The notes below the pieces were generated by a model. The model did not search any database, had not been told where the DNA came from, and saw only the letters and a list, made by a program, of their open reading frames with translations. Shown here piece after piece: positions 6,514 to 34,957 of a stretch of DNA of 64,000 nucleotides (position 1 is the first letter of the stretch; each line of letters opens with the position of its first letter). Position numbers and translations under genes: made by a program. Where the stretch lies: NCBI RefSeq assembly GCF_030142075.1, contig NZ_CP126241.1, positions 496,001 through 560,000 on the forward strand. Direction: 5' to 3'. The DNA comes from Arthrobacter sp. zg-Y20. Lineage in GTDB: Bacteria > Actinomycetota > Actinomycetes > Actinomycetales > Micrococcaceae.

Positions 6514-6900
6514 TCAGGCGGCTACCGGGTCCAATGGAGCACGGACCGGCCAGTCCTGGCCTTCGAGGATCACCTGCGCACAGCTGCCGGTGTTCAGATT
6601 GACCACAATCGGTGCCAGCAGGTTGACGGTGGTTCCGTCCAGGGCGGGGTTGGCAACCACCAGGACGGCGGCGTCGGCCGCGGTTTCCAGCTGCAGCTGG
6701 TGGCGCTGCTCATCGGTGATTTCCGGGTGGTAGTCCGGCAGGTACACGGAGGCGTCCAGCACGTAGAGCCGGGCGGTGCCCCCGTTGCCGGAGGTGCTCA
6801 GGGCGAACAGGCCGGCCGCGCCGTCGATCTCCTCGAGGTCGAAGTGGACCTCGGGAGCCAACCCGGGAGGGGGCGTCAGGAATGTGAGGCCGGTGCTCAT
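6514..6900 (-). CDS. fliW: Flagellar assembly factor FliW
   Basis: A 128-residue protein with the FliW signature regions (LTFLTPPPGL, LYVLDASVYLPDYHPEI, VNLLAPIVVNLNTGSCAQVIL). In Bacillus FliW binds either flagellin or CsrA; when cytoplasmic flagellin is low it is freed to bind CsrA and lift repression of flagellin translation. Here it is the last gene of flgN-flgK-flgL-fliW and its ATG overlaps the flgL stop by four bases. A csrA gene lies at the other end of the same locus (34706). The flagellin leader has two GGA sites, so the full circuit is present. Confidence 0.93.
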   Translation of the reverse strand: MSTGLTFLTPPPGLAPEVHFDLEEIDGAAGLFALSTSGNGGTARLYVLDASVYLPDYHPEITDEQRHQLQLETAADAAVLVVANPALDGTTVNLLAPIVVNLNTGSCAQVILEGQDWPVRAPLDPVAA

Positions 6901-7784
6901 CGCAGGAAGTCCATCAGTGTGGGCTGCAGTGCTTTCGCCGTGACCGCCAGAGCCGCCTGGTAGGCGACTTCCTGGAGCTTCATGTCCATGATGACTTTGG
7001 CAGTGTCCAGGTCCTCGATGCCGGAGCGCCGGGATTCGAGGCTGATCGACTGCTCCGCCAGGGTGTCCTTGGCCTTGATCGTGGCGGCATGGCGGACGCC
7101 AAGGGCGGAGTGCTCCATCCGAACCGTTTCCGCGGCGGAATCGATCTTGGTCAGGTATCCGCTGGCATCGTTATTTTCGTTCAGATCCTTTACCAGGTCA
7201 TCCACCAGGCGAAAGACTGATCCCTCTCCGCTGCCGAACACTGCTTCACCATCGGTATCAACGCGCATCAGGGTACTGCCGTCCAATCGGCGCGTAGTGG
7301 GGGTGCCGCTTCCGCTGTAGTTGTAGGAGCCCGCGTCTTCGGTGAAGGCCTTACCGGTGTCCGAGGTCCCGGCAAACACTGTCCGGCCCAGGTAGGTGGT
7401 ATTGGCTTCGCGCAGCAGGTCAGTCTTCAGGCCGGCAAGTTCCGTGGCAATTGCCTTGCGGTCGCTCGGTGACATAGTGCCGGTAGTGGCGCTGAGGGCA
7501 AGGTCCTTGACCCGGCCCAGGATCTTGGTGGTATTGCTCAATGCGCTGTCGGTAACGCTGAGCCAACCCTCCGCGTCGCTCTGGTTGGAGCCGTACTGAA
7601 CGTTCGCACGGATTTCGGACCGGACCTTGAGCGCATTGGCCGTGCCGGTCGGGTCATCCGAAGGGCGGCCAATGGTGGCGGAGGAGGTGACCTGTTCCTG
7701 CAGTTTGGCCATGCGGGACATGCTGGCCTGCAAGTTCTGCTGGGCCGTCCGGGCCATGGTCTGGTTGGTGGTGCGGCTGATCAC
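6897..7784 (-). CDS. flgL: Flagellar hook-associated protein 3 FlgL
   Basis: A 295-residue flagellin-like junction protein joining hook-filament cap proteins to the filament. The N-terminal D0 helix (VISRTTNQTMARTAQQNLQ) and the C-terminal helix (MKLQEVAYQAALAVTAKALQ) frame a central variable part. The GTG at 7784 is chosen because GGAAGG sits eight bases upstream and it begins just after the flgK stop; a longer frame starting at 7841 would overlap flgK by about 50 bases. It is exported by the flagellar type III apparatus, so no Sec signal is expected. Confidence 0.92.
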   Translation of the reverse strand: MISRTTNQTMARTAQQNLQASMSRMAKLQEQVTSSATIGRPSDDPTGTANALKVRSEIRANVQYGSNQSDAEGWLSVTDSALSNTTKILGRVKDLALSATTGTMSPSDRKAIATELAGLKTDLLREANTTYLGRTVFAGTSDTGKAFTEDAGSYNYSGSGTPTTRRLDGSTLMRVDTDGEAVFGSGEGSVFRLVDDLVKDLNENNDASGYLTKIDSAAETVRMEHSALGVRHAATIKAKDTLAEQSISLESRRSGIEDLDTAKVIMDMKLQEVAYQAALAVTAKALQPTLMDFLR

Positions 7785-7788
7785 GGGG

Positions 7789-9189
7789 TTACCTTCCGAC
7801 AATTCCGGTGCGGTTAATGAGGGTGTCGAGCATTTCGTCAATGGCGCTCATCACGCGGGAAGCACCCTGGTAAGCGTGCTGGTACATCAGCAGGTTCACG
7901 TTTTCCTCATCCAAGTCCACTGAGGCGTTGGACAGCTGCAGGTCGACAGCCGAGGAGGAAGCCACGCCGGCGAGCGTTGCCTGCTGCAGTTCGGACCGGC
8001 TGAGTGCACCGGTGGCTGTCACGAAGGTGCTCCACACTGCGTCAGCGGAGCCGGCCTTGGAACCCAGCTGGGAGATTTTGTCCGCCATGCTGCCGTCCAA
8101 AGTGCCTGCGCCGGGCGTTCCCGTGGCAATGCCGGAAGCGTCTGTGGGAATCGCTTTCAGCGTGGTGGCTGCGGGGCTGCCGACGGTGAAGAAGTTTAGC
8201 CCGGTGGCGCCGCCGGTGGTGGCGCCCTGGCTGTGCAGTTCGTTGACGGTGGCCGCCAAGGTGGCGGCAACCTCGTTGTAGGACGCGGCGGCGGTTGCGA
8301 AGATCCCCCCGGCTCCTGCCGGAGCCAGCAGTGAAACGGCGCCGGCAATTTCGCCGCGGCTGATCCCGGCGGAGCCGGCACGGTCCGTCCAGGAAACGGT
8401 GGGTGCCGCGGTGTCATCGATGGATGTTCCGCCGGTGACCTGCAGGGTCCGTACGTTTGTGCCCGTGACCAGCGCGTTGCCGTCGATGAGCACGTCCACC
8501 ATGCCGTCCGGAGTTTCCCGGACCGTGGCACCGCTCAGGGCAGCGATGGTGGTGGCCAACGAGTTGCGCTGGTCCACCAACTCGTTGGCGGATGCGCCGG
8601 AAGCAAGAGTGGACCGGATAGCTCCGTTGAGCGTGGCCAGCTGAGAGGCGCTGTCATTGAGTTCGCTGACCATGTCATTGAGCCCGCTGCGGGTGCTGTT
8701 CCACTGGTCGCGGACGTTGTTGTATCCGTCGGCAATCTGGCCTGCCACCGCTGCGGTGTCGCTCAGCAACACGGCAGCGGCGGTATTGTCGCCCGGCTTG
8801 TTGGCTACGCCCTGCCAAGCAGCGGAGAAATTCTGCAGTGCGGTGGAGAGCCCGTTTTTGCCCGGTTCGTTGAAGCTGTCCTCCAGGGCAATGAGGGCGT
8901 TGGCGCGGACGGCGGAGTAGCCGGCCACGGCGGCGGTGCTGCGCACCCGGGTATCCAGCTGAAGGCTGCCCAGCCGGGCAATGGAGTCCACGGATACGCC
9001 CTGGCCGACGCCGGTACCGGTGGAGAACCTGCCCATCGGGGCCAGCGAGGGGGCAGCGGAGGTGTTCAGGCGCTGGCGGGTGTAGCCGGCAACGTTGGCG
9101 TTGGCGATGTTCTGGCCCACCACGTCAATGCCCTTGCGGGCCGCGGAAAGGCCGGTGTATGCCGTGTTCAGGCCGCTGAAGGTGCTCAT
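7789..9189 (-). CDS. flgK: Flagellar hook-associated protein 1 FlgK
   Basis: A 466-residue hook-filament junction protein. The N-terminus STFSGLNTAYTGLSAARKGI plus VVGQNIANANVAGYTRQR is the axial-protein motif, and the C-terminal LLMYQHAYQGASRVMSAIDE is the helix that packs in the filament core. It is the second gene of the leftward operon, with FlgN, its presumed export chaperone, directly upstream. Length is shorter than enteric FlgK (about 550), the reduction being in the middle domains. Confidence 0.93.
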   Translation of the reverse strand: MSTFSGLNTAYTGLSAARKGIDVVGQNIANANVAGYTRQRLNTSAAPSLAPMGRFSTGTGVGQGVSVDSIARLGSLQLDTRVRSTAAVAGYSAVRANALIALEDSFNEPGKNGLSTALQNFSAAWQGVANKPGDNTAAAVLLSDTAAVAGQIADGYNNVRDQWNSTRSGLNDMVSELNDSASQLATLNGAIRSTLASGASANELVDQRNSLATTIAALSGATVRETPDGMVDVLIDGNALVTGTNVRTLQVTGGTSIDDTAAPTVSWTDRAGSAGISRGEIAGAVSLLAPAGAGGIFATAAASYNEVAATLAATVNELHSQGATTGGATGLNFFTVGSPAATTLKAIPTDASGIATGTPGAGTLDGSMADKISQLGSKAGSADAVWSTFVTATGALSRSELQQATLAGVASSSAVDLQLSNASVDLDEENVNLLMYQHAYQGASRVMSAIDEMLDTLINRTGIVGR

Positions 9190-9821: not shown

Positions 9822-9849
9822 CTATCGGCCGGTTGATCCGGAATGTTAG
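9822..9849 (-). promoter_or_regulatory. Sigma-28-type promoter of flgN operon
   Basis: On the minus strand CTAAC (9845-9849), a 15-base spacer and GCCGATAG (9822-9829). This matches the flagellar sigma factor consensus (TAAA-N15-GCCGATAA) and is identical in both boxes and spacing to the flagellin promoter. It overlaps the region just upstream of the sigma gene. Confidence 0.8.
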
Positions 9850-9926
9850 TGGTATGTTTCAGCTAAAGCGCTCACGTGTGGATAGCACAGCGGACTCAGC
9901 CACTGACCATGGGCAGGCGCACAACT

Positions 9927-9968
9927 GGGGGATCAGTTGGGGACAGTTGGGGAACAAGGGCTTGGGGG
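9927..9968 (+). other. G-quadruplex-type motif before the sigma factor start
   Basis: Five G-runs (5, 4, 4, 3 and 5 G) separated by loops of 7, 6, 5 and 3 bases on the coding strand, satisfying the G3+N1-7 pattern. The last run lies eight bases before the TTG at 9977 and could also act as a GU-tolerant ribosome-binding site. Confidence 0.5.
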
Positions 9969-9976
9969 TCCAAAGA

Positions 9977-10858
9977 TTGAATCGTACCGAACGCAATGCG
10001 CTCGTGGTGGAAAACCTGCCGCTGGTTGGCTATCTCGTATCCGAAGTCTGCGCCAAGGCCACGCACCTTTCGCGTGATGACTTGGCCTCCGCCGGCTCCA
10101 TTGCCCTGATAACGTCGGCCGATTCCTTTGACCCGAATCTTGGGGTTCCTTTCGGTGCGTATGCCCGCCGCCGCATCGTCGGTGCTTTCGCTGATGAAAT
10201 GCGTTCCAGCGATTGGGCCACCCGATCCGCCCGGCGCCGGATCAAGGAAACACTGGCGGTCAAGGAAACCCTTACTGCAGCGCTTGGGCGCACGCCCAAT
10301 GTGGATGAAATTGCCTCGGCTCTGGGTGTGGACCGCACCGTCGCCGAAGACGCCCTTTCGGATGCTTCCCGCACGGTGTCCAGCTTGGACGAGTCGGTGA
10401 CCGACTTCCTGGTCGCTGACATGCCGTCGCCGGAGGGCTCCCTGCTGGCTACCGAACGGTTGAAGTACCTCAATGCAGCGGTCGCTGCCCTGCCGGAGAA
10501 GATGCGGTACATCGTGGAGGAAATCTACTTCCACGACCGTACGGTGAAGGAGATTGCCGAAGAACTCGGCAGCACGCACTCGGCTGTCTCACAGCAGCGT
10601 GCCGAAGCGGTCCGCCTGCTCCGCGACGGATTGGGCACGCATTACTCGGACGAGGGCAATGCCCCGCAGATTTCCTCCCGGATTGCCCCGGCCCGCCGCA
10701 ATGCCTACCTCACTTCTGTGGGGGACCGCACGGCCGGCGGGATTACCCGGCACCACCTGGCGCCGGTGCTTCCCGGGGCTGCGGGTCTTCCTGGATTTCC
10801 GGTGGGGCTTCCCGGCATTCCGGGGCGGCCGGCAGTATTTAATCCTGCCGCTTCCTAG
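9977..10858 (+). CDS. FliA/WhiG-type flagellar RNA polymerase sigma factor
   Basis: Sigma-70 family protein of about 293 residues. Region 2 (LPLVGYLVSEV...DLASAGSIALITSADSFDPNLG, FGAYARRRIVGAF), region 3 (TLTAALGRTPNVDEIASALG) and region 4 (VAALPEKMRYIVEEIYFHD, VKEIAEELGSTHSAVSQQR) are in order and resemble FliA/SigD. A Gly/Pro-rich tail of about 70 residues follows. The frame is open from 9833 and has an ATG at 9854, but codons before 9977 are unlike the neighbours (CTA, AGA, CAA), and family homology begins at NRTERN, so I favour the TTG at 9977. It is the likely reader of the five locus promoters. No FlgM anti-sigma is visible. Confidence 0.85.
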   Translation: MNRTERNALVVENLPLVGYLVSEVCAKATHLSRDDLASAGSIALITSADSFDPNLGVPFGAYARRRIVGAFADEMRSSDWATRSARRRIKETLAVKETLTAALGRTPNVDEIASALGVDRTVAEDALSDASRTVSSLDESVTDFLVADMPSPEGSLLATERLKYLNAAVAALPEKMRYIVEEIYFHDRTVKEIAEELGSTHSAVSQQRAEAVRLLRDGLGTHYSDEGNAPQISSRIAPARRNAYLTSVGDRTAGGITRHHLAPVLPGAAGLPGFPVGLPGIPGRPAVFNPAAS

Positions 10859-10906
10859 CGGCGTTCCTGGCAGACGGAAACGAATAAAAAATTCTTTTCC
10901 GAATCG

Positions 10907-10934
10907 CTAACACTCTTTGATGCTCCGCCGATAG
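10907..10934 (+). promoter_or_regulatory. Sigma-28-type promoter of flagellin
   Basis: CTAAC (10907-10911), a 15-base spacer and GCCGATAG (10927-10934). An A6 tract and T4 tract lie directly upstream (10886-10898) in the position of an UP element. The leader to the ATG would be about 53 bases. Confidence 0.85.
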
Positions 10935-10945
10935 CTATGGTTGCA

Positions 10946-10987
10946 GGCCCACGGACGGGCCGCTTAGTACAGCCCACTCACGGAGGA
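10946..10987 (+). promoter_or_regulatory. Predicted CsrA-binding leader of flagellin
   Basis: A five-base stem GGCCC/GGGCC (10946-10950 with 10957-10961) presents ACGGAC in the loop. A second GGA is part of the Shine-Dalgarno GGAGGA at 10982-10987, 29 bases on. This two-site plan (one hairpin site, one covering the ribosome-binding site) is the one established for CsrA on Bacillus subtilis hag. Binding itself is inferred. Confidence 0.65.
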
Positions 10988-10994
10988 ATACATC

Positions 10995-11831
10995 ATGGGT
11001 TTCACAATTAACACCAACGTTTCATCGCTCAACGCCATGCGTAACCTGACGCTCAACCAGAGCTCGCAGGCCAAGTCGGTCGAGCGCCTCTCCAGCGGCA
11101 TGCGCATCAACCGTGCAGCTGACGACGCCGCCGGCCTGGCGATCTCCGAAGGCCTGAAGAACCAGGTTTCCGGTCTCACCGTTGCCGGCCGCAACGCCCA
11201 GGACGGCATCAGCCTCATCCAGACCGCTGAAGGCGCCCTGACCGAGGTCCACAACATCCTCAACCGTATGCGTGACCTGACGGTTCAGGCTTCCAACGAT
11301 ACGAACAACACCGAATCCCGCACCGCTATCCAGACCGAAGTCACGGCCCTGACCTCGGAACTGGGACGGATCAAGGACACGACAAACTTCAACGGCATCC
11401 AGCTGCTGGACAATACCGTGACCTCCGGCGCTACTGCAGGCACGCTGAAGATCCAGGTTGGTGCTGATGCCAACGAGACCATCGACGTCACTCTGGCCAA
11501 CGTGGCCGCCACGCTCACCACGATGGGCGACCTGACCGTTGATTCCCAGGTAAACGCAGCCGCGTCGACCACCAAGCTGGATGCTGCCATCAAGTCCACT
11601 TCGGATCAGCGCGCAACCCTCGGTGCACAGCAGAACCGCCTGGAGTCCACCTCGCGCTCCATCGCGGTGTCCGTGGAGAACCTCTCCTCGGCCAACTCCC
11701 GTATCCGCGACACGGACATGGCAGCGGAAATGGGCAGCTTCACCAAGTCCCAGATCCTGTCCCAGGCCGCTACCGCCATGCTGGCCCAGGCCAACCAGAT
11801 GAACTCCGGCGTTATGTCGCTCCTGCAGTAG
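10995..11831 (+). CDS. fliC: Flagellin
   Basis: A 278-residue flagellin. The N-terminal D0/D1 (INTNVSSLNAMRNLTLNQ, VERLSSGMRINRAADDAAG, and GRNAQDGISLIQTAEGALTE) and C-terminal D1/D0 (VENLSSANSRIRDTDMAAEM, ILSQAATAMLAQANQMNSG, SLLQ at the end) are highly conserved. There is no surface domain to speak of, so the filament would be thin and of the minimal type, as in Bacillus Hag. It has its own promoter, a GGA-hairpin leader and a near-perfect GGAGGAA ribosome-binding site. The gene is called hag in Gram-positive bacteria. Confidence 0.97.
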   Translation: MGFTINTNVSSLNAMRNLTLNQSSQAKSVERLSSGMRINRAADDAAGLAISEGLKNQVSGLTVAGRNAQDGISLIQTAEGALTEVHNILNRMRDLTVQASNDTNNTESRTAIQTEVTALTSELGRIKDTTNFNGIQLLDNTVTSGATAGTLKIQVGADANETIDVTLANVAATLTTMGDLTVDSQVNAAASTTKLDAAIKSTSDQRATLGAQQNRLESTSRSIAVSVENLSSANSRIRDTDMAAEMGSFTKSQILSQAATAMLAQANQMNSGVMSLLQ

Positions 11832-12015: not shown

Positions 12016-13350
12016 ATGGCGCTAGGCATTGACGGGCTGATCAGCGGCATCAAAACCACCGAGATGATCACCGAACTCATGAAGGTTGAAGCCCGTCCCC
12101 AGGCGCTGCTGAAGCAAAAGGTCGAGACCAATAAACTATTCGCTACCGCCCTGCAGAACCTGAATAGCAAGATCGCGTCACTGACCGAGGCGGCCGGGAA
12201 GATCGCCAAGCCGGCCGGCACGGAACGCTACACCGCAGTCTCCGGCTCGGACAGTATCAAGGCCACCGTCAAGACCGGTGCCGCCGCCGGGTCGCTGGAC
12301 CTCACGGTGAACAAGCTGGCCACCGCGCAGGTGTCCCTGTCCGGAGCCATGGCCGCCTGGCCCAACGGTGACGCGCTGTCGATTTCCGTCGACGGGGCCA
12401 TCACCGAGCTGGACACCGCGGGCAAGAGCATGGACGAAGTCATCAGCACGGTCAACAAGGCCAACCTGGGTGTCACGGCCGTCAAGATCGCCGCCGGCAG
12501 CGTGGACGGCGTGCAGCAGTACCGTATGCAGTTCACCGCCGCCGAAACCGGTGCAGCAGGAGCGTTCACCGTCTCGCAGAACGGCACCGATCTGGGTGCC
12601 ATCCGCGCGGGATCCGACGCCGAGGTCACGCTGTGGGCCGGAGTGCCCGGCGCGGAAACGAAAATTACCTCGGCCACCAACACCTTTGCCGATCTGATGC
12701 CCGGCGTGGACATCACGGTGTCTGCCGTCTCCGCCCAGCCAGTGACCGTGGCCGTGAGCCGGGACGCCAAGGCGATCTCCGACGTCGCGGCCTCGCTGGT
12801 CACCGGCCTCACCGACGTGTTCAATTACATCGACCGGAACTCCGCCGTATCAGTGAACACGTCCGACGGCGTCACCAAGACCACCGGCGGAGTATTTACC
12901 GGAGACTCGGCCACCCGCTCGCTGAAGCAGTCAATCATTGATGCCGCCACCGGTGCGCTGGACGGACGCTCGCCGTCGGAAATCGGTATCACCCTCACCA
13001 AATACGGCACGGTCGAGTTCGATGCCGAGAAGTTCAGCACCGCCCTGGCCGCGGACCCGGAAAAAACACAGGCCGCGCTTACGGCCATCGCCTCCCGGGT
13101 CGAAGCGGCCGGCAAGGCTGCCTCAGATAAGTACGACGGCTCCATAACCAAGCGCATCACCAGCCAGGAAACCGTGGTGAAGTCCCTCAACACGCAGGTT
13201 GAGGACTGGGACCGGCGCCTGGCTTCCCGCGAATCCACGCTGAAAATGATCTGGTCCAACCTGGAAGTTAAGCTCGGCACCCTGAACAGCCAGATGGACT
13301 GGCTCACCGGCCAGCTCGACTCCCTCTCCGCCTCCTCGAGTAAGAAGTGA
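12016..13350 (+). CDS. fliD: Filament cap protein FliD (HAP2)
   Basis: A 444-residue filament cap protein. N-terminal GIDGLISGIKTTEMITELM and KQKVETNKLFATALQNLNSK are the FliD N-terminal domain; the C-terminal coiled-coil SITKRITSQETVVKSLN plus LETLNSQMDWL-type helix closes it. The ATG at 12016 follows AAGGAGC at good distance; a frame from 11911 would run through the hairpin and is rejected. It caps the growing filament and is exported by the flagellar apparatus. It is followed by fliS with overlapping stop and start. Confidence 0.92.
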   Translation: MALGIDGLISGIKTTEMITELMKVEARPQALLKQKVETNKLFATALQNLNSKIASLTEAAGKIAKPAGTERYTAVSGSDSIKATVKTGAAAGSLDLTVNKLATAQVSLSGAMAAWPNGDALSISVDGAITELDTAGKSMDEVISTVNKANLGVTAVKIAAGSVDGVQQYRMQFTAAETGAAGAFTVSQNGTDLGAIRAGSDAEVTLWAGVPGAETKITSATNTFADLMPGVDITVSAVSAQPVTVAVSRDAKAISDVAASLVTGLTDVFNYIDRNSAVSVNTSDGVTKTTGGVFTGDSATRSLKQSIIDAATGALDGRSPSEIGITLTKYGTVEFDAEKFSTALAADPEKTQAALTAIASRVEAAGKAASDKYDGSITKRITSQETVVKSLNTQVEDWDRRLASRESTLKMIWSNLEVKLGTLNSQMDWLTGQLDSLSASSSKK

Positions 13351-13790
13351 CCGTGAACTACGGACTTGCCGCCAAGCGTGCCGAATACGCACGCAACGCA
13401 GTGCTCTCCGCCTCCCCGGCGCGCCTGCTGACCATGCTCTACGACCGGCTGCTGCTGGACCTGGCCCGTGCCGAAGAAGCCCAGACCACTGCCAACTGGC
13501 AAGTAGCCTCGGAAAACCTGCTCCACGCGCAGGCCATCATCACCGAACTGCTGGGCACGCTGAAAACGGACCTTTGGGAGGGCGGGGAAAACCTGCACGC
13601 CATTTACACGTACTCGCTGTCCACGCTGATGAACGCCAACATCGGCCGGGACGCGAAACTGACCCGCGAATGCATCGACCTGCTCGAACCAATCCGCGCC
13701 GCCTGGCACGAGGCCGCCGCGCAGCTTCCCGCCGCGGGTGTCGCGCCTGCTGCAGCCGGAACTCCCGGAGGAGTCCTCGGTGTCGGCTGA
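13347..13790 (+). CDS. fliS: Flagellin export chaperone FliS
   Basis: A 147-residue four-helix protein with the FliS hallmark regions AEYARNAVLSASPARLLTML, YDRLLLDL and NLHAIYTYSLSTLMNANI. FliS keeps flagellin monomeric before export and in Bacillus also promotes FliW-flagellin interactions. The GTG start overlaps the fliD stop (GTGA). The final 20 residues are Ala/Gly/Pro-rich and unconserved. Confidence 0.92.
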   Translation: MTVNYGLAAKRAEYARNAVLSASPARLLTMLYDRLLLDLARAEEAQTTANWQVASENLLHAQAIITELLGTLKTDLWEGGENLHAIYTYSLSTLMNANIGRDAKLTRECIDLLEPIRAAWHEAAAQLPAAGVAPAAAGTPGGVLGVG

Positions 13791-31556: not shown

Positions 31557-33610
31557 AACGCAACCGCAACCTCTTGAAACTCGCCGTCCCCGTAGGCGTC
31601 ATCGGCATCATCCTGCTGCTGGTGGTCCCCATCCCTGCGGCGCTGCTGGACGTGCTGATCATCATCAACATCCTGCTGGCCCTGGTGATCCTGCTGACCA
31701 CCATGTTCGTGCGCAAGCCGCTGGACTTCTCGGTGTTCCCGTCCCTGCTGCTGGTTGCCACGCTGTTCCGGCTGGGACTGAACGTGGCCTCCACGCGCCT
31801 GGTGCTGGGCGAGGGATATGCCGGGCAGGTCATTGAAGCCTTCGGGCACGTGGCAGTGAACGGGTCCTTGATCATCGGCGCGGTGATCTTCCTGATCCTG
31901 GTGGTCATCCAGTTCGTGGTGGTCACCAAGGGTGCCGAGCGCGTGGCCGAGGTAGGGGCGCGGTTCACCCTCGATGCCATGCCCGGCAAGCAGATGGCCA
32001 TTGACGCGGACCTGAATGCCGGCCTGATCACCGACACCCAGGCACGGGAACGCCGTGCCGAGGTATCCGCCGAAGCCGACTTCTACGGCGCCATGGACGG
32101 TGCCTCCAAGTTCGTCAAGGGCGACGCCATTGCCGGCCTGATCATCATCATCATCAACATCATCGGCGGCATCGCCATCGGGATGCTCCAGCGCAGTATG
32201 TCCGTTGGCGAAGCCGTCAACACCTACAGCCTGCTGACCATCGGCGACGGGCTGGTCACCCAGATCCCCGCGCTGCTGATGGCCGTCTCCACCGGCATGA
32301 TCGTGACCCGCTCCAATGCCGAAGCCGATATGGGCAGCACCGCGGGGGCGCAGCTGAGCCAGTCCCGGAACGCCCTGATGGTCGCAGGCGGCGCGGCCAT
32401 TGTGATGGCCTTGATCCCGGGCATGCCCAAGATGCCGTTTATTGTCATCGGCGCGCTGCTGATCTTCGCGTCGCAGCGGATCAAGAAACAGGAAGCGGCG
32501 GCGGAGGCGGAGAAGGCCAGCACCCAGGCCGCCCTGGATGCACCGGCCGCCTCGGAGACCACCGAAGACCTGATTGAGCAGATGCGGGTGCACGCCCTGG
32601 AGATCATGCTCGCTCCGGACCTGGTGGACATTGTCACCGGCGGCTCCGATGACCTGCTGGCCCGGGTCCGGGCGCTGCGCCGCAAGATCGCCATGGACCT
32701 GGGCATTGTGGTGCCGCCGGTCCGCACCCGCGACAGCGTGGACCTGCCGCTGTCCACCTACGTCATCCGGATTGCCGGAGTGGAAGCAGGCCGCGGGGAG
32801 GCGCCCTCCGGCAAGATCCTGGCCTTGGGCGACTACCTGGACGGGCTGCCCGGCACCGCCACCGTGGAACCCGTGTTCGGGCTGGCCGGAAAGTGGGTTC
32901 CCGCGGAAATGCAGCATGCCGCGGAAATGGCCGGTGCCACTGTTATCGACCGGGTATCCGTGCTTGTGACGCACCTCTCCGCGGTGATCACCGCCAACGC
33001 CGCCCGGCTGCTGACCCGCGAGGACGTGCGGGTGCTGACCGAAGGGGTGAAACAGGTGAACCCCTCGGCCGTGGATGAACTGGTGCCCGGGGTGCTGTCC
33101 CTGGCGGAAGTGCAGCGGGTGCTCCAGGGCCTGCTGGCCGAGCAAATCCCCATCAATGACCTGCCCCGGATCTATGAGTCCCTGCTGCTGCGCGCGAAGG
33201 TCTCCTCGGACCCGGAGGGCCTGATCGAAACGGCCCGCACGGCACTGGGCCCGGCCCTGGCCGCCCAGTATGTTGCCGACAACGTCCTGCGGGTCATCAT
33301 GATTGACCCGTCTCTGGAACAGTCCATGCTCGAAGCGCTGCGTCCCTCGGACCAGGGCAGCCAGATCCTGCTCGACCCCGCCCGGATCGAAACCGTGCTG
33401 GCCTCGCTGCGGAACGCCGTCGCCGGAGCCGAAAATGCCGGCTTCAATGCGGTGCTGGTCTGCGCCCCGGCACTGCGCCCCGCTATCCGCCGGCTGGTGT
33501 CGGCGCAGGCGGGCGGACTGCCGGTACTGTCCTACCAGGAAGCGACAGCGGGTAATGTCAGTATCGAGACTGTAGGGGTGGTGCGTGGAACCGAGACGAT
33601 TTCAGCTTGA
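31553..33610 (+). CDS. flhA: Export gate protein FlhA
   Basis: A 685-residue protein: eight N-terminal membrane helices with the FHIPEP region (RKPLDFSVFPSLLLVATLFR, ARFTLDAMPGKQMAIDADLN, EADFYGAMDGASKFVKGDAI), then the ring-forming cytoplasmic domain ending in AQAGGLPVLSYQEATAGNVS. It docks chaperone-substrate pairs. GTG start overlapping flhB. Length and motifs are those of a complete FlhA. Confidence 0.96.
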   Translation: MKRNRNLLKLAVPVGVIGIILLLVVPIPAALLDVLIIINILLALVILLTTMFVRKPLDFSVFPSLLLVATLFRLGLNVASTRLVLGEGYAGQVIEAFGHVAVNGSLIIGAVIFLILVVIQFVVVTKGAERVAEVGARFTLDAMPGKQMAIDADLNAGLITDTQARERRAEVSAEADFYGAMDGASKFVKGDAIAGLIIIIINIIGGIAIGMLQRSMSVGEAVNTYSLLTIGDGLVTQIPALLMAVSTGMIVTRSNAEADMGSTAGAQLSQSRNALMVAGGAAIVMALIPGMPKMPFIVIGALLIFASQRIKKQEAAAEAEKASTQAALDAPAASETTEDLIEQMRVHALEIMLAPDLVDIVTGGSDDLLARVRALRRKIAMDLGIVVPPVRTRDSVDLPLSTYVIRIAGVEAGRGEAPSGKILALGDYLDGLPGTATVEPVFGLAGKWVPAEMQHAAEMAGATVIDRVSVLVTHLSAVITANAARLLTREDVRVLTEGVKQVNPSAVDELVPGVLSLAEVQRVLQGLLAEQIPINDLPRIYESLLLRAKVSSDPEGLIETARTALGPALAAQYVADNVLRVIMIDPSLEQSMLEALRPSDQGSQILLDPARIETVLASLRNAVAGAENAGFNAVLVCAPALRPAIRRLVSAQAGGLPVLSYQEATAGNVSIETVGVVRGTETISA

Positions 33611-34604
33611 AGGGACGTCGCTTGACGCCCTGAAAGCCCAGGTGTTTGCCGAGCATGGGCCGCGGGCGAGGATTATCGCCGCCGAGAAGGTCACCGTGGG
33701 CGGGATCGGCGGGTTCCTCTCCCGCCAGCACTATGAGGTGACGGTGGAGCTGCCGCCCAGCGGCAGGCGCCGCGCCGCCGTCGAGCCGGACCTGCCCAGC
33801 CGTGCGTCGTCGGAACGCGCCGGCCTTTCGGCGCTGCTCGAAGAAGCGGACCGGGCCGAATCCACCCTGCACCCGGCCGCACCCGCTGCTCCGTCCGTTT
33901 CCACCGGATCGCATGCCTTCGCCGAGCTGATGGACACCCTTGCCGCCAGCACCGGGGCCCCGGTGCAGGCACCTGCCGCATTCGCCCCGGCCCAGCCGCC
34001 GGCTCCCGTACCCCTGAACCGGATCCAGCTGAACCAGCTGCAGGCCGGCCAGCTCCAGGGGAACCAGCAGCCGGGCATGGCGCTGGAACCGGTCCAGCGC
34101 ACCTCACTGCCCCCGGCGCCGCTCGGCGGCGCCGGGGACCTTGTCATGGTGGTCGGCCTGGGCGATGAAGCCCTGGAGGTCTGCCGGTCAATGGCGGATC
34201 TGGCCGGCAGCGGAGCGGCTGCGGTCCGGGTAGCCGGTGTGCTGGAGACGGACGGGGTGGGCCGGGCGGCGGACCGCCGGGCGGTAGCCACGGCGAGGGC
34301 CGCCGGTGTCATGGCCGGGCACGCCATTTTCCTCGCCTACGGGCTGGGTCGCTCCGGAACCGAGATGGGCCGGCACTCCACGCTGATTTCCGCTCTCGCC
34401 GCTGACCAGGTTTGGGTGGCCGTGGACGCCGGCCGCAAGCCCGAAGACACCGCCGCCTGGGTGGGCGCGGTGCGCTCCGCGGTGGTGGTGGACGCCGCCG
34501 CCGTCGAGGGCATCGACACCACCGGGACTCCCCAGTCCGTCAACTCGCTGGGCCTGCCTATCGGCTGGCTCGACGGCGGGCCGTCGCCCACGCCGGTCCT
34601 CTAG
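33585..34604 (+). CDS. FlhF-like protein with degenerate GTPase domain
   Basis: A 339-residue protein. Its N-terminus (RRFQLEGTSLDALKAQVFAE, RARIIAAEKVTVGGIGGFLS, RQHYEVTVEL) matches the start of FlhF; a long Pro/Gln/Ala linker follows; the C-terminal 150 residues follow the FlhF G-domain outline, ending in SLGLPIGWLDGG, the counterpart of the family's GLPIAYLT. But where FlhF has GPTGVGKTT this protein has VVGLGDEALE (190-198), so GTP binding of the SRP type is unlikely. It follows flhA with a 26-base overlap, the normal flhF position. FlhF governs flagellar placement in polar flagellates; here it may be a structural remnant. Confidence 0.75.
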   Translation: MEPRRFQLEGTSLDALKAQVFAEHGPRARIIAAEKVTVGGIGGFLSRQHYEVTVELPPSGRRRAAVEPDLPSRASSERAGLSALLEEADRAESTLHPAAPAAPSVSTGSHAFAELMDTLAASTGAPVQAPAAFAPAQPPAPVPLNRIQLNQLQAGQLQGNQQPGMALEPVQRTSLPPAPLGGAGDLVMVVGLGDEALEVCRSMADLAGSGAAAVRVAGVLETDGVGRAADRRAVATARAAGVMAGHAIFLAYGLGRSGTEMGRHSTLISALAADQVWVAVDAGRKPEDTAAWVGAVRSAVVVDAAAVEGIDTTGTPQSVNSLGLPIGWLDGGPSPTPVL

Positions 34605-34705: not shown

Positions 34706-34957
34706 ATGCTGGTGCTAACACGCAGGTCCGGAGAGCAGATCCTGATCGGGGATGACATTGTTATTACCGTTCTGGACTCACGCGGCGACGGCGTGCGCAT
34801 CGGCATCGATGCTCCCCGCGGCGTGAAGATCCAGCGCAACGAGGTTGTGCGTGCGGTGGAAGAAGCCAACGTGGCCGCCACCGAAACCCTTCCGGGCGCC
34901 GAAGAGCGGATCAAGGCCCTGCTGGCCGGGCGGATTCCCCCGGCACCTGCTGACTGA
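34706..34957 (+). CDS. csrA: Carbon storage regulator CsrA
   Basis: An 83-residue RNA-binding protein. MLVLTRRSGEQILIGDDIVI and VRIGIDAPRGVKIQRNEVVR are the canonical CsrA strands, including the RNA-contacting Arg in strand one and the GIDAP(R)GV loop. It represses translation by binding GGA in hairpin loops; FliW antagonises it in Gram-positive bacteria. It closes the flagellar locus, as in Bacillus where fliW and csrA also lie near hag. The C-terminal 20 residues beyond the core are longer than in E. coli (61 residues total), as in FliW-responsive CsrA proteins. Confidence 0.96.
   Translation: MLVLTRRSGEQILIGDDIVITVLDSRGDGVRIGIDAPRGVKIQRNEVVRAVEEANVAATETLPGAEERIKALLAGRIPPAPAD

Follow-up and report, generated by a model that had tools for sequence, protein, structure and literature searches.

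In Arthrobacter sp. zg-Y20 the fliC mRNA appears to begin with a two-site operator for CsrA that would stand under feedback by FliW and flagellin, a reading to which we give a probability of about 0.87. The window, by which the whole stretch of 64,000 nucleotides analysed is meant, carries the following features.

6514–6900, minus strand: fliW, the expected flagellin- and CsrA-binding protein (PF02623, 5.4e-20; PDB 5dmb_A, 5.8e-08).
6897–7841: a FlgL-like gene between flgK and fliW, the only other Flagellin_N match of the genome besides fliC.
9833–10858, plus strand: sigma-70 family sigma factor, probably FliA (Sigma70_r2, r3, r4), its true start likely downstream of 9833.
10908–10934, plus strand: sigma-28-type promoter, TAAC at 10908–10911, 15 bases, then GCCGATAG at 10927–10934.
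10946–10961, plus strand: predicted CsrA site 1, a GGCCC-ACGGAC-GGGCC hairpin with GGA in its hexaloop, supported by conservation and two-sided compensatory changes.
10971–11001, plus strand: probable second stem-loop, a predicted fold of AGCCCA (10971–10976) with UGGGUU (10996–11001) and the Shine-Dalgarno in its 19-nt loop.
10980–10987, plus strand: predicted CsrA site 2, ACGGAGGA over the Shine-Dalgarno, in conserved A-N-GGA context.
10995–11831, plus strand: fliC, flagellin of 278 aa (Flagellin_N PF00669, 4e-46; PF00700, 5.7e-24), with ATG at 10995.
13347–13790, plus strand: fliS, flagellin chaperone (PF02561, 1.4e-29).
34706–34957, plus strand: csrA, RNA-binding repressor of 83 aa (PF02599, 1.9e-23; PDB 5dmb_D, 5.4e-13).

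The host genome thus holds csrA, fliW and flagellin; csrA and fliW have one match each in its entire 3.53 Mb. By flagellin similarity, the closest named relatives among the best 80 of 446 are Arthrobacter, at 92% identity or less. For a 339-aa open reading frame between flhA and csrA (33585–34604), a Pfam search with an E limit of 0.001 returned no family.

A sequence-only reading of this DNA had described a hairpin in the flagellin leader, a second GGA in the Shine-Dalgarno and the flanking of the locus by fliW and csrA. The hairpin (GGCCC at 10946–10950, loop ACGGAC at 10951–10956 with its GGA at 10953–10955, GGGCC at 10957–10961) and the Shine-Dalgarno GGAGGA at 10982–10987, whose GGA lies 29 bases downstream of the loop GGA, were read exactly as claimed, and the coordinates and families of both flanking genes were borne out. 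The promoter, the second stem and the commonness of the fliW/csrA bracketing are additions to that first observation.

Folding energy was not significant either for the hairpin (z −1.40; 20 of 200 shuffles as low) or for the inferred transcript (z −1.61; 10 of 200), and was dropped as evidence. Energy on a single sequence is unconvincing, and the question was settled by comparison across leaders. The 205 leaders collected comprise that of the window, those of 80 named loci, which were the best 80 among 446 relatives in a single scan, and another 124 taken from genomes elsewhere in the host's order. Of the 127 strong flagellin matches that the order-wide search gave (E no worse than 1.4e-38), one is the window's own and two, both in genome G030, were fetched later; both G030 leaders also keep the core hairpin. 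Removal of one leader that was too short (L078) and of 20 duplicates, present because the named-locus and order collections share genomes, left 184. Outside the set stand six Flagellin_N genomes with weak matches only (G060, G144, G153, G215, G304, G364) and a match in G328 (2.1e-29).

The hairpin loop of the window carries A-N-GGA within CANGGANG, the recognition core described for CsrA/RsmE in the available text of PMC6692469. The core CAHGGANG, which falls within CANGGANG, was found 25 nt or more upstream of the start codon in 177 of the 184 distinct flagellin leaders. Four of the other seven carry a variant (L037, L071, L083, G280), and the hairpin core is absent from three (L075, L077 and L084, sequences of Chloroflexota, Acidimicrobiales and Frankiaceae). 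Among leaders from genomes of the order it was present in 122 of 124, the exceptions being G280 and G010, whose leader is the same as that of L037. Of the 184 distinct leaders, 158 had an ANGGAN hexaloop closed by an uninterrupted stem of at least 4 bp, compared with 45 of 3680 dinucleotide shuffles; in three of the 158 the scored site is the Shine-Dalgarno itself. In ten genomes where several flagellin genes matched strongly, every copy keeps the core (35/35). A search of 10700–11100 against Rfam gave no family match at E up to 1. As separate observations, the third stem pair is a recurrent A-A or A-G mismatch in 14 of 177 leaders (e.g. L053, L070, G158, G165), and one flagellin leader (L095, from G001) bears two tandem CCACGGACGG hairpins.

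Covariation was scored on a structure-blind alignment of 111 leaders, reduced from 113 by dropping L095 and L169, in which the chosen copy was doubtful; a second alignment took 69 of these. Where a leader had two cores, as a few did, the better-paired one was used. The six-pair stem was 89.6% paired over 666 cells, and its covariation score was 0.555 as against 0.138 ± 0.016 in shuffled alignments, none of 500 shuffles being as high; relatedness of the sequences inflates this score, as it does the co-occurrence counts given below. When the partner strand was slid along as a control, the score fell to 0.112 or less. Two-sided compensatory change was seen in five of the six stem pairs tested, and RNAalifold recovered the same stem independently. 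The invariance of the loop and closing pair is partly due to selection, because the sequences were picked for having the core.

The second predicted site lies over the Shine-Dalgarno at a bridging distance, 29 nt in the window. In the 158 hairpin-bearing leaders the Shine-Dalgarno context was CACGGA in 93, CAAGGA in 38, CATGGA in 6 and others in 21, and the spacing from GGA to GGA was 25–34 nt in 133. As evidence, site 2 counts for less than site 1, because a purine-rich Shine-Dalgarno yields GGA for free. ACGGAGG occurred at fliC alone in the contexts of 27 genes and ORF starts in the window, which says little because the fliC Shine-Dalgarno is also the strongest. The two-site CsrA target proposed earlier thus holds at the level of sequence, with a conserved, covarying site 1 and a conserved A-N-GGA at the Shine-Dalgarno.

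The arrangement TAAC, 15 bases and GCCGATAG fits the sigma-28 promoter consensus, and a sigma-70-family gene lies directly upstream of it. A looser pattern (T[ATC]A-N15-18-NCGAN) precedes 163 of the 177 core leaders, as against 563 of 8850 shuffled upstreams (6.4%). The closing C of the loop fell 14–18 nt past the −10-like element in 153 of 177 core leaders, compared with 57 of 8850 shuffles (0.6%). From the position of the element, fliC transcription would start at about 10941, giving a leader of about 54 nt, and the hairpin would therefore be the first structure of the fliC mRNA. In Lysinibacillus and related leaders the hairpin seems, as judged by eye, to lie farther from the promoter. Six arrays of four to six flagellin genes (L176–L181) have a hairpin leader for each gene, with a promoter-like element at 24 of the 26 genes.

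A hairpin placed so regularly at the inferred 5′ end is what a protective 5′ stem would look like, and site 1 could be a CsrA site that acts mainly on mRNA stability, by protection or decay of the 5′ end, instead of by blocking the ribosome. We consider this unlikely, as most leaders keep A-N-GGA at the Shine-Dalgarno and the prevailing GGA spacing suits a dimer that reaches across to the ribosome site. Less likely still is that the inverted repeat, a conserved palindrome near the promoter and directly downstream of the −10-like element, is the DNA operator of a transcription regulator: the conserved A-N-GGA loop is asymmetric and matches CsrA, csrA co-occurs with flagellin, and G-U accounts for 29 of the 86 non-Watson-Crick cells at pairs 2–5, about a third, where about a sixth would be expected if G-U were indifferent. 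That a chance hairpin sits beside an ordinary Shine-Dalgarno, with csrA and fliW mere passengers of the flagellar cluster, would suit the unremarkable folding energy and is the least credible of all, being contradicted by the core in 177 of 184 leaders, by the conserved, covarying stem of the 111 non-redundant ones and by the rarity of the hairpin in shuffled sequence.

Under the preferred reading of a two-site CsrA operator, a second stem probably forms around the Shine-Dalgarno and the start codon. In the inferred transcript it is predicted to pair part of the fliC start codon. The structure-blind alignment gave a weak signal (56.6% paired, 55.4% in shuffled alignments; 6 of 500 shuffles as high). 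In a register-free test, a helix of at least 4 bp was found in 167 of 177 leaders as against 81% of shuffled upstreams, and one of at least 5 bp in 119 of 177 as against 40%. The base facing the wobble position of codon 2 associated with the wobble base (Fisher p 1.6e-4 and 0.02, kinship ignored), and matching changes were seen in relatives (TCCCA with codon 2 GGA, GAGCC with GCT, GACTCA with AGT); such compensatory changes are limited to some lineages. No helix was found in six of the eight leaders whose second codon is GCG, GCA, GCC or AGC. As the alignment, register-free and wobble tests are mixed, the second stem is graded as probable, and it is less universal than site 1.

Co-occurrence of the three genes was examined in 396 genomes of the order, in which csrA was found in 106, Flagellin_N in 107 and fliW in 107. 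All three were present in 103 genomes and none in 287, with six mixed. For csrA and Flagellin_N, both occurred in 104 genomes, csrA alone in two, Flagellin_N alone in three and neither in 287; for csrA and fliW the numbers were 105, one (csrA alone), two (fliW alone) and 288. Since Flagellin_N also matches FlgL, a match to it points to a flagellar genome and not specifically to flagellin. Among the mixed genomes, G167 and G379 have csrA and fliW with no Flagellin_N match, G030 and G125 have flagellin and the hairpin with no csrA match in drafts of 1060 and 580 contigs, and G304 has a single sub-cutoff Flagellin_N match only. G168 has csrA and a hairpin-bearing fliC, but its genome gave no match to FliW, and control by FliW is therefore not shared by all. 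In G168 (L206, G168:C3:229000-237000) an ORF with an HDOD domain lies beyond flgL, in the place that fliW takes in the window. In G379 (L207, G379:C1:118000-137000) fliW and csrA are 2.7 kb apart on opposite strands, and the flagellar cluster between them has apparently been deleted.

Where both genes were present (105 genomes; the first fliW was used where a genome has two), fliW and csrA lay within 1 kb in 19, farther apart on the same contig in 69, of which 66 had them on opposite strands, and on separate contigs in 17. The distance was 25–50 kb in 57 and 50–100 kb in eight. The bracketing seen in the window is thus a common arrangement in the order.

The CsrA protein keeps L2, L4, R6, A36, I42, R44, E46 and N55, the last of which we take to be relevant to the circuit as well. 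The other seven are the positions at which changes impaired RNA regulation most strongly in C. jejuni CsrA, as described in the available part of PMC6692469. FliW contacts the extended C-terminus of CsrA (PMC7652899, available text). Such a C-terminus is present here, the alignment to 5dmb_D reaching residue 70. For both CsrA and FliW the best solved relative is PDB 5dmb, of which chains D and A are two partners within one solved entry. By homology to 5dmb_A, FliW would bind CsrA and flagellin and relieve repression. The earlier proposal that the same circuit works in this host is well supported in its sequence-level parts, namely the two conserved sites of the leader, the near-perfect co-occurrence of csrA, fliW and flagellin, the CsrA residues and the 5dmb matches.

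Specificity was assessed with a two-site model. In the host genome the fliC leader scored 49.8 bits, and the next matches 23.7, 21.5 and 19.7 bits (27 matches up to E 10, the best 14 of them read); the full element was absent from these three. The 23.7-bit match lies inside a dehydrogenase-like frame with the loop GCGGAC, which has no leading A, and the other two lie within open frames and match mostly the Shine-Dalgarno part; all three were rejected as CsrA targets. With a hairpin-only model, of whose ranked matches four were read, fliC was again on top, narrowly (25.2 versus 22.4 bits), which means that site 1 by itself is not unique in the genome.

In 81 sources (1.02 Mb), all 89 matches of at least 19.8 bits were followed by a flagellin N-terminal motif. 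A two-site match was present in 77 of the sources, the remaining four being L075, L077, L084 and L078, the last with an incomplete leader. In 40 whole genomes, all 17 with strong flagellin matches scored 31.6–55.3 bits at the flagellin leader, the leaders of 11 of them standing in the model's own alignment, while 20 genomes of the same family without Flagellin_N scored 24.0 bits at most. The remaining three gave 28.2 bits (G379), 20.9 bits (G167) and nothing at E 0.01 (G304). Other matches in flagellated genomes reached 29.9 bits (G030, contig C138), with further ones at 20–27 bits. The G379 match has no GGA in its loop and precedes a gene that reads, from its translation only, as a transporter permease; it was taken as background.

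From Bacillus and Campylobacter we infer CsrA binding, repression, FliW antagonism and titration, so that a circuit of the Bacillus type may act in this host; most likely the conserved fliC operator works as it does in those organisms. A sigma-28-type polymerase would start at about 10941, and the site-1 hairpin would emerge first. One pocket of a CsrA dimer would take the ACGGAC loop and the other ACGGAGGA at the Shine-Dalgarno 29 bases on, which the stem pairing the start codon would probably present, and the bridged dimer would block the ribosome. Binding of FliW to CsrA would release repression, and unexported flagellin, by binding FliW, would bring it back when export stalls.

As is predicted here, the flagellin leader of B. 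subtilis hag has two CsrA sites, one of them over the Shine-Dalgarno, and FliW is the CsrA antagonist (PMC7652899, PMC6070490; available text of both). In B. subtilis fliW and csrA are adjacent (PMC6529632, available text), whereas here they stand on opposite strands, separated by about 28 kb that includes flagellar genes, and the circuit is a predicted one. The C. jejuni flaA leader, as given in the available part of PMC4894983, is 45 nt long and folds into two stem-loops that both carry ANGGA, the second of them covering the ribosome site; it shows compensatory changes, and fliW lies apart from csrA. The present leader, about 54 nt if transcription starts at 10941, would be laid out like it, and the second stem resembles its second stem-loop. 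C. jejuni belongs to another phylum, however, and the probable second stem of the fliC leader takes in part of the start codon and does not occur in every leader.

Regulation of flagellin by CsrA was proposed in 2008 for Kineococcus radiotolerans (Krad1626), on the basis of agreement with hag site BS2 at 9 of 12 positions, and csrA was noted together with flagellar genes in three other actinobacteria; the available text of that report mentions neither a leader hairpin site nor FliW (PMC2587704). That Actinobacteria use FliW was suggested because the gene occurs in them (PMC4682653, available text), and in a survey of actinobacterial flagella CsrA and FliW figure only as search queries, once each in the main text (PMC10746217). 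In the available portions of the open-licence literature, outside which most subscription journals fall, neither a conserved hairpin nor an experiment is reported for Actinobacteria. CsrA control of actinobacterial flagellin has thus already been proposed, and what is added is the conserved, covarying hairpin leader, as read from aligned leaders.

Flagellin feedback control in actinobacteria, previously proposed for one genome, gains an element that is supported by covariation and present in almost every leader examined. Only tentatively can it be suggested that CsrA in this order is a dedicated regulator of one transcript and not a global one, acting on a minimal two-hairpin leader at the mRNA start, with csrA and fliW kept only alongside flagellin and FliW occasionally lacking, as in G168. 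The two-site model finds the predicted target, and a single mRNA may be the main target of CsrA in this small system, which suits it well to the question of what CsrA did ancestrally.
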